From: Morinoia aosen
Taxonomy: Eukaryota; Arthropoda; Malacostraca; Amphipoda; Talitridae
Length of the DNA: 64,000 bases
Assembly (NCBI GenBank): GCA_030386875.1
Contig: CM059564.1
Location: forward strand, 48,814,075-48,878,074
Direction: 5' to 3'
Within the stretch, counting starts at the first letter, position 1, and each line of letters begins with the position of its first letter. Positions 38,070-43,289 of the stretch are shown here, piece by piece. Both the position numbers and the translations under genes were made by a program. The notes below the pieces were generated by a model. It was not told the origin of the DNA and did not search any database. It saw only the letters and a list, made by a program, of their open reading frames with translations.

Positions 38070-38430
38070 CCTCACAGATATCCCTCACAGAGACCCTCAC
38101 AGAGACCCTCACAGAGACCCACACAGAAACGCCCTCACAGAGACCCTCACAGAGACCCTCACAGATACCTTCACAGAGACCCTCACAGAGACCCTCACAG
38201 AGACGCTTTCACAGAGACGCCCTCACAGAGACCCTCACAGAGACCCTCACAGAGACGCTTTCACAGAGACGCCCTCACAGAGACCCTCACAAAGACCCTC
38301 ACAGAGACCCTCACAGGGATGCTTTCACAGAGACCCTCACAGAGACCCTCACAGGGATGTTTTCACAGATACCCTCACAGAGACCCTCACTGAGACCCTC
38401 ACAGAGACCCTCACAGAGCCCCCTCACCAC
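38070..38430. repeat. 12-bp minisatellite abutting the donor of Ig exon 5
   Basis: About 28 units of CTCACAGAGACC with variants. On the transcribed minus strand each unit reads CTGTGAGGGTCT and so contains a GTGAG donor-like core. It starts directly after the real donor. Confidence 0.95.
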
Positions 38431-38434
38431 TCAC

Positions 38435-38572
38435 TGCTCAGGATCATCTTGCCAGCAGTGTCGGTCCAGTAGTTGATGCTGCGCGGGAACGCCTCCGTGT
38501 GGCACTCCAGGTGTACGTCCATCCCGCGGCTCACTGACACCAGCTGGTTCGGTATCCAGAGTACCGGGGCGA
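38435..38572 (-). CDS. Ig-gene exon 5: first half of Ig domain 3
   Basis: This 138-nt exon (2 + 45 codons + 1) joins exon 4 through a split phenylalanine, giving F-APVLWIPNQLVSVSR. It then encodes GMDVHLECHTEAFPRS with the first Ig3 cysteine, and INYWTDTAGKMILS with the core tryptophan. The acceptor CCCCCACAG uses as its polypyrimidine tract the C-rich strand of the minisatellite at 38573-38815. The donor is GAGCA/GTGAGT and leads straight into the 12-bp array at 38070-38430. The exon is therefore sandwiched between two minisatellites with almost no unique intron sequence on either side. Confidence 0.92.
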
Positions 38573-38815
38573 CTGTGGGGGTGTGGGGGTGGTGAGGGTA
38601 GAGAGGGGAGTGGGGGTAATGGAGTGGGGGGGGGTGGTTGGGTAGTGGGGTGGTGAGGGTAGGGAGGGTAGTGGGGGTGACGGGAGTATTGGGGGTAGGG
38701 GGGTTAGTGAGGGTGGGGGTAAAGGAGGTAGGGAAGGTGGGGGAATGAGGGTAGTGAGGGTGGTAGGAGTAATTGAAGAAGTGAGGGTAATGGGGGAGGA
38801 GTACACCTTGGAGGG
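38573..38815. repeat. G-rich minisatellite abutting the acceptor of Ig exon 5
   Basis: GGGTAGTGAGGG-type units on the plus strand, C-rich on the transcribed strand. It supplies the polypyrimidine tract of the exon 5 acceptor and has multiple G-runs with quadruplex potential. Confidence 0.93.
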
Positions 38816-42134: not shown

Positions 42135-42443
42135 AATTGTAAGTTCAGACACACACACAGCACAACTCACACTGCACTGAGCAACACACACACACACAGC
42201 ACAACTCACACTGCACTGAGCAACAAACACACACACAGCACCAGCTCAATCTGCACTTAGCAACACACACACACACATAGAAGACGGTGCACCAACTCAC
42301 ACTGCACTAAGCAACACACAAATACACACACGCACGGAGCACAACTCAGACTGCACTAAGCAACACACAAACACACACACACAGAGCACAACTCACACTG
42401 CACAAAGCTACAAACACACACACACACACAGAGCACAACTCAC
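42135..42443. repeat. CA-rich minisatellite with repeated donor-like units, abutting Ig exon 4
   Basis: Units of about 40-50 bp combine a CA run with CAACTCACACTGCACT. The exact donor-containing 12-mer of exon 4 (CAACTCACACTG at 42436) recurs at 42389, 42293, 42202 and 42163, with variants at about 42242 and 42342. Confidence 0.93.
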
Positions 42444-42572
42444 ACTGGACTTTGAGCGTGATGCGCTTGCTGACGGAGGGCGGGACGTCGTTGGAGGCGA
42501 TGCAGAGGTAGGCGCCCATGTGCAGCCTCGACACCTTCGGGATGTGCAGCACCTCCGAGTCCGTCACTTTCA
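42444..42572 (-). CDS. Ig-gene exon 4: second half of Ig domain 2
   Basis: This 129-nt exon (2 + 42 codons + 1) starts after the acceptor CCTGTCGGCAG. A split leucine joins it to exon 3. It encodes KVTDSEVLHIPKVSR, then LHMGAYLCIASNDVPP with the second Ig2 cysteine, and ends SKRITLKVQ. The VSRLHMGAYLC block is one of the most conserved stretches in the lachesin/DIP family. The donor is CCAGT/GTGAGTTG. The downstream intron starts immediately with a CA/TG-rich minisatellite in which this donor sequence is repeated (see 42135-42443). Alternative donor use there is possible but untested. Confidence 0.92.
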
Positions 42573-43289
42573 CTGCCGACAGGTGTGGCAACGAGCTTAG
42601 TGCTTAAACCAGCAAGTTGTGATGACAAACTTAGTGCTTAAACTAGCAAGTTGTGGTGACACACTTAGTGCTTAAACTATCAAATTGTTGCAACAAACAT
42701 AGTGTTTCTCACTTTCACTGCGGCAAATATTGGCAAACGTCATCGAAACTATACTGTGGGTAGAATTGATTTTTTCTGTTGTTAGCAACAAGCACATAAC
42801 CTGCAAGCAGGCAAAGCGTTACAACTTTCTCGCAAGCTAAATTATAACGTAGAGCAATTTTAAGACACTGAAGCTTTGTGTATATTTTACAATCAAGTTT
42901 CGCGATGTCGAAATAATGGCTTTGTTTTTTTTTGGGGCCTTAAGATCATTTCCCCGAAATTTGTTAATATTATTAGACCTCATATAAGTTTCAAGGTCAA
43001 TCGACAGTAGTCAATATAAGGCAAAAAATTTCGAGAAATAAGCATAAAAAGGAGCATTTACAAAGTATGTGCTTCAGGAGCATTACATTTAATCAAATCA
43101 TGCATTAAAATATCGATTATTATTAGTGAGTACGTATATTTTCCCTTGTTATAAACAGGTGATTAAAACAATTAGGTTTAAACTTGATATGTTTATTAAT
43201 GAAAGAAGCTGCAAACACAAGCTGTCCTGCGGGAATTGCCTGATGGAACACTTAGCTATTGGCAGGTCTCTGATGTTAGCTCAGCTGGA

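Follow-up and report, generated by a model that had tools for sequence, protein, structure and literature searches.

Tandem copies of a 5' splice site in an intron of a DIP-related amphipod gene, and comparable arrays at other exon-intron boundaries of the genome

The intron that follows exon 4 of a gene in a 64,000-nucleotide stretch of the Morinoia aosen genome (the window; C9:48814075-48878074 of an assembly of 1.99 Gb in 29 contigs) begins with a row of copies of its own 5' splice site. This raises the questions of whether a repeat came to supply the donor or the donor was copied into the repeat, and of which copy the splicing machinery would use. We consider the array to be, with a probability of roughly three in four, a neutral minisatellite derived from the exon-intron boundary, of the "mirage" kind found in amphioxus, which is tolerated rather than selected and whose first donor is the one used. 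Rows of identical donors amount to a natural experiment in 5' splice-site choice by the spliceosome; where the donors are identical, strength offers no cue, and position and exon context must therefore decide.

By its predicted protein, the gene is a relative of the Dpr-interacting proteins (DIPs) of nerve-cell recognition. Five exons could be placed on the minus strand (58679-58472, 50857-50699, 42572-42444, 38572-38435 and 36871-36722); they join as one open frame covering Ig1-Ig3, and the Ig exons resemble Ig1-Ig3 of DIPs. Exon 4 was the sole exon used as a query against the PDB, where phmmer matched Drosophila DIP structures, the best being DIP-eta (6eg0_B, E = 5e-15), followed by DIP alpha, theta and gamma. 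Supported by this match and by the open spliced frame, exon 4 (42444-42572, minus strand) encodes the second half of Ig2 (...MGAYLCIASNDVPPSVSKRITLKVQ) and is in phase 1 at both ends; the next exon, exon 5 (38435-38572, minus strand), encodes the first half of Ig3 and has the donor AGCA|GTGAGT. Read on the minus strand, the end of exon 4 is ...CTCAAAGTCCAGT|GTGAGTTGTG. Joining it to exon 5 at 42444 gives a Phe junction codon (...KVQFAPVLWIPNQL) and a frame that stays open through Ig1-Ig3, and the donor is therefore CAGT|GTGAGT, in phase 1, with 42444 as the last exon base and a T at position -1.

This authentic donor, CAGT|GTGAGTTG (42436-42447, minus strand), opens an array of seven donor-type, TG-rich units (42135-42447, minus strand) of 47, 47, 49, 51, 40, 39 and 40 nt, the last being a partial piece; TRF places the start of the array 7 nt inside the exon and its end at +295. 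As originally predicted, the exact 12-mer of the real donor, CAGTGTGAGTTG, recurs at 42389-42400 (copy 2, +47 nt), 42293-42304 (copy 4, +143 nt), 42202-42213 (copy 6, +234 nt) and 42163-42174 (copy 7, +273 nt), all on the minus strand, which puts a number of identical donor cores into a span of about 280 nt. The near copies expected between them are two on the same strand, copy 3 (CAGTCTGAGTTG, 42342-42353) and copy 5 (CAGATTGAGCTG, 42242-42253), and both have lost the GT. Beyond the five exact copies the 12-mer occurs nowhere else in the window. Five copies in 42135-42450 compare with a mean of 0.007 and a maximum of 1 in 2000 local dinucleotide shuffles, and the four in intron 4 with a mean of 0.001 and a maximum of 1 in 1000 shuffles. 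A donor of the form usual in the family, CAGT|GTGAGT, thus recurs in a tandem row within its own intron, with the authentic boundary kept as the first unit, and splicing at that unit preserves the frame.

The relative age of donor and array can be approached through paralogous exons. Queried with exon 4, the genome gave 42 matches, and 30 of these loci were fetched. The exon ends in T|GT at 28 of the 30, including all 26 with E up to 0.014; the intron opens with GTGAGT at 20 of the 28 loci, with GTGAGC at four, and with GTGGGT and GTAAGT at two each. The remaining two, L029 with E 0.12 and L032 with E 0.76, end in G|GT, carry no boundary copies and resemble other Ig genes. L004 and L014 have the donor CAGTGTGAGT and no array at it. 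Because T|GT is common to the paralogs, loci that lack an array included, the donor form is older than the array and the repeat was not its source; the array copied the donor and is secondary to it. Two origins had been offered for the array, growth from the exon-intron boundary and a repeat that came to supply the donor, and the paralogs support the first and speak against the second. The same donor without an array in related species had been named as part of what would refute the original prediction, and donors of this kind are found in paralogs of the same genome (L004, L014).

The exon part of the window's units is CAGT, 4 nt that match exactly, or 7-8 nt when mismatches are admitted. A longer exon-tail match, of GCTCAAAGTC to GCTCA--GTG, is no more than suggestive: equally high scores were obtained in 307 of 20000 shuffles and with 50 of 714 other exon 16-mers. 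In a strict boundary test the donor 20-mer (10 exon and 10 intron nt) must recur no more than 1.4 kb away with at most 3 mismatches; the window passes just at the limit, with two copies of 3 mismatches each, and is a weak, modest example of boundary copying. CAG is also expected from the donor consensus, and the window array could therefore have started at the intron edge. A minisatellite that arose wholly in the intron, at its GTGAGT... start, with no exon copied and with CAGT owed to coincidence and the donor consensus, would fit the exact sharing of just 4 exon nt, the weak significance of the longer match and the 18% of the window that consists of arrays. It would also fit another array of donor cores in this gene, 28.5 copies of the 12-bp unit GTCTCTGTGAGG with GTGAGG (38070-38427, minus strand), which begins 8 nt after exon 5, has no demonstrable exon tail and fails the strict test. 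Such an origin is nevertheless rather unlikely, as CAGT is in register with the exon in all four intact downstream units, and arrays at several homologous boundaries of paralogs share at least 16 nt of exon tail (16-69 nt). The boundary-derived origin that we prefer would have begun with one or a few tandem duplications having one end at or just inside the edge of exon 4; unequal exchange or slippage would then have spread the units into the intron, where they would have drifted in the length of their TG tracts and lost the GT in two units.

Scored as 9-mers against a consensus matrix, the four intact downstream copies equal the true donor (6.71). In computed splicing, use of copy 2 would shift the frame and meet a stop 39 nt into exon 5, and use of the copies at +143, +234 and +273, or of a further site at +319, would first read through an in-frame TGA (42346-42348, minus strand) that lies in the way of any read-through past copy 2. 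A downstream copy had been expected to lengthen exon 4 and with it the Ig2-Ig3 linker; since an early stop follows every downstream copy, this change to the linker is unsupported, and downstream use would instead cut the protein short ahead of Ig3. As no downstream choice is productive, through frameshift or early stop, the spliceosome presumably chooses the first copy, and the array is probably neutral, tolerated rather than useful.

The same stops could be put to use if the array served as a set of poison donors, whose regulated use would yield frameshifted or truncated transcripts (Ig1-Ig2, no Ig3) and tune DIP dosage or make a secreted form, at a rate set by the length of the array. The UG-rich tracts that separate the donors could add to this by recruiting UG-binding splicing factors, among which are the TDP-43 and CELF/Bruno families. 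The equal scores of the four intact downstream donors and the early stop that follows every downstream choice are in keeping with such a role. So is the minisatellite of human IFI6 (6-16), of which, according to Turri, Cuin and Porter (1995), two downstream units are reportedly used and three mRNA species made. Its units at the exon end carry donors, as in the window gene, and the downstream units are described in the passage concerned as potential donors, a precedent for their being usable (PMC4526556). The window differs in that all of its downstream copies are predicted from sequence to lead to a premature stop; the retention of later exons in frame, which we took as the expected feature of an IFI6-type array, is not seen for +47, +143, +234, +273 or +319. 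Against poison donors stand the loss of the GT in two of the six downstream copies and the absence of boundary copies, by the strict test, at 18 of 22 distinct exon-4 loci; where arrays do occur at the other loci, their units are unrelated. In the passages that describe them, amphioxus mirages are reported as harmless to splicing (PMC3087553, PMC3902484). We regard a regulatory role of this kind as unlikely.

A neutral, boundary-derived array would not be an isolated case here; in this genome arrays cover functional donors about as often as other intron positions. By the strict test, boundary copies occur at 9 of 53 distinct donors: 4/22 of DIP exon 4, 4/15 of DIP exon 5 and, in an unrelated family, 1/16 of kinesin motor exons, this last being a lower bound from 0.8-kb pieces. 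Counted by locus, 5 of 28 exon-4 loci are positive (22 distinct after six pairs were collapsed, 4 positive), as are 6 of 20 exon-5 loci (15 distinct, 4 positive), a pair being scored positive when one member was. The exon-4 set omits L029 and L032 and keeps L030/L031 (E 0.63); it would give 4/24 with both omitted loci included. From 26 exon-5 loci, L060, L061, L069, L072, L074 and L075, at which no donor was placed, were dropped, and the remaining donors were chosen by eye, some lying up to 178 nt beyond the match. For kinesin, 20 of 126 matches were chosen, L077, L087, L088 and L089 were dropped, and donors were again set by eye. Random flank positions pass the same test in 10-32% of cases (208/880, 233/880, 190/600 and 66/640), and exon-interior positions in 3 of 370 (2/220 and 1/150). 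With a rate no higher than that of random flank, donors are therefore not favoured for array capture, yet they are not shielded as the exon interior is.

The strict test misses likely cases: donor-core arrays seen by eye or by TRF at exon 5 of the window, at L057 and at L058/L059 score 0, as does the kinesin locus L078 (C21:3725800-3726594, minus strand), where the exon tail (DETMSTLR end) is repeated in degenerate form in the next intron. Boundary copying also touches acceptors, which were placed by script, at 2 of 22 distinct exon-4 loci (on C18 with 23 nt of exon shared, on C25 with 61 nt) and at 1 of 26 exon-5 loci (L056, 6 nt shared). In ten arrays at seven boundaries, 156 of the 168 downstream copies retain the GT, a proportion that leans towards intact because the copies were collected by similarity.

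Some of these arrays are far larger than that of the window. At exon 4 on C25 a 66-bp unit that starts 15 nt inside the exon is repeated 50.9 times at L033 (minus strand) and 16.9 times at L034 (plus strand), and the acceptor of the same exon lies within a 172-bp array of 2.3 units at L033 and 5.3 at L034. The two loci (C25:4230001-4250000) are similar gene copies in inverted orientation, separated by about 7 kb, with matching blocks that are 91-97% identical and 500 N in L034. In the 16.9-unit array the frame stays open for 497 codons and encodes a hydrophobic 22-residue unit; in its 50.9-unit partner the second unit contains a stop. On C4, exon 4 has a 40/30-bp unit that begins 15 nt inside the exon, with 10 downstream copies. 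On C18 there is a single exon-tail copy with 34 nt shared, which lies in a TG-rich array at +672 at one locus and at +2091 at its partner, and of these partners L007 passes the strict test and L006 fails it. Exon 5 on C6 has an in-frame 63-bp unit that starts 53 nt inside the exon and is present in 9.2 versus at least 24.6 units at partner loci, the open frames of L054 (C6:66536059) and L055 (C6:69409705) running to 229 and 943 codons. Exon-5 units elsewhere measure 47 bp on C23 (CCG|GTGAGT), about 20 bp on C18 and 31 bp on C7. The partner loci on C25 and on C6 may be alleles of each other. In a separate observation on C25, the exon-5 donor |GTACGT at L058/L059 (C25:4230903 and C25:4247920) opens a 9-bp GTACG-bearing array, for which TRF gives at least 93.8 copies in L033 and at least 206.8 in L034, in each case up to the end of the stretch.

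The larger interest of the window locus lies in this recurrence within the genome and in the in-frame arrays on C25 and C6. Copies at 9 of 53 donors, together with partner loci of unequal array length, would make donor choice and the origin of introns testable at many loci. Growth of arrays over boundaries might even be so common that the spliceosome routinely picks the first of several identical or near-identical donors, and the in-frame arrays of C25 exon 4 (66-bp unit) and C6 exon 5 (63-bp unit), which are open for 497 and 943 codons, each at one of its two loci, could then add variable repeats of 22 and 21 residues to neuronal recognition proteins through donor choice. This is speculative, and we think it quite unlikely.

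Copying of boundaries was known before, from amphioxus, and the window array is probably a further case; such copying recurs in other genes of this genome. The amphioxus mirages are described, in the passages on individual genes, as tandem duplications across exon-intron boundaries in Adh3, the globins BflGb6 and BflGb9, TnC and PGBD5; unit number varies between two haplotypes, and the authors take splicing to be undisturbed (PMC3087553, PMC3902484). These accounts note AG/GT signals in many units, retention of the authentic boundary and involvement of both 5' and 3' boundaries, and one of them proposes boundary-spanning arrays as a path to new introns (PMC3087553). The window array resembles them in repeating a splice signal with the authentic boundary as a terminal unit, and differs in carrying only about 4-8 nt of exon and in belonging to a 1.99-Gb genome with DIP genes, where the boundary copies reach the frequency given above and up to 51 downstream donor copies in one array. 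A candidate counterpart to the unstable length of mirages is seen in the C25 (16.9 vs 50.9) and C6 (9.2 vs at least 24.6) pairs, the window locus being single. The open-licence literature yielded no mirages outside amphioxus, "mirage" being a narrow search word. The "Mirage" of Uloborus is the name of a transposon and not a boundary repeat.

Intron gain by tandem genomic duplication, reportedly the subject of Rogers (1989; cited in PMC3087553), is another system in which a duplicated segment bears splice signals; the window's copies differ in that they sit in an existing intron and show no new one. The potato RdRp gene is described as an instance of such gain in the passage devoted to it (PMC4974935). 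Closer to that state is a kinesin intron (L081, C11:22589790-22590592, minus strand), in which a copy of the exon end and donor stands 133 nt downstream, behind an acceptor-like CTGCAG, as a candidate pseudo-exon. The intronic VNTR of human ABCA7 is likewise a tandem array inside an intron, and in ABCA7 array length is linked to how the gene is spliced; the abstract is silent on donor-bearing units (PMC5954066). Earthworm metallothionein genes, whose introns contain minisatellites and one clone of which has duplicated copies of exon 4 that are absent from the transcript, may be related, the pertinent passages being silent on any unit that spans an exon-intron boundary (PMC12783039).

If the donor core GTGAGT itself promoted tandem duplication, arrays would start preferentially at splice sites. 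Of 46 array loci in the window, seven have at least three GTRAG on the minus strand, which is the gene strand, and one has them on the plus strand; several homologous donors moreover have boundary arrays with unrelated units. We nonetheless consider such seeding very unlikely, given that the boundary rate of 9/53 is not above the flank background. Three spaced AGGTGAGT give 4808 matches genome-wide against 3726 for the reversed pattern, a small excess in a count that is not one per array and has no single-motif baseline. In the window, 4 of 10 exon edges lie no more than 12 nt from an array, a proximity that is not significant, 661 of 5000 circular shifts reaching 4/10; with so large a share of the window in arrays, an array near a donor is therefore not unusual here.

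That the assembly itself made the repeat number at the window locus is highly improbable: equally scoring pairs a few Mb apart look like uncollapsed haplotypes, and the assembly is therefore not error-free, but the units differ in sequence and length, the window locus is found once in the genome searches and a similar architecture is present at other loci. Such pairs of exon matches, about 1-4 Mb apart on one contig, are seen on C6, C18, C2, C16, C3 and others, and C6 has two of them in the same order.

A few smaller observations concern the surroundings of these exons. The 13-mer at the acceptor of exon 4, GCAGTGAAAGTGA (42564-42576, minus strand), occurs again at 42709-42721, 145 nt upstream, and a 34-bp array (42584-42704) lies between the two copies; this may be a duplication on the acceptor side, although in the window it fails the 20-mer test. 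The exon-5 acceptor is 3 nt from an array at 38575-38763 that is C-rich on the minus strand; arrays stand beside both the acceptor and the donor of exon 5, and exons 4 and 5 are therefore flanked closely on both sides. In 12 contig-end pieces, two of which consist entirely of N, no telomere motif turned up. On the contig of the window, closely similar kinesin exon matches follow one another at intervals of roughly 50 kb (C9:51263725-51554716), apparently as a local gene cluster.
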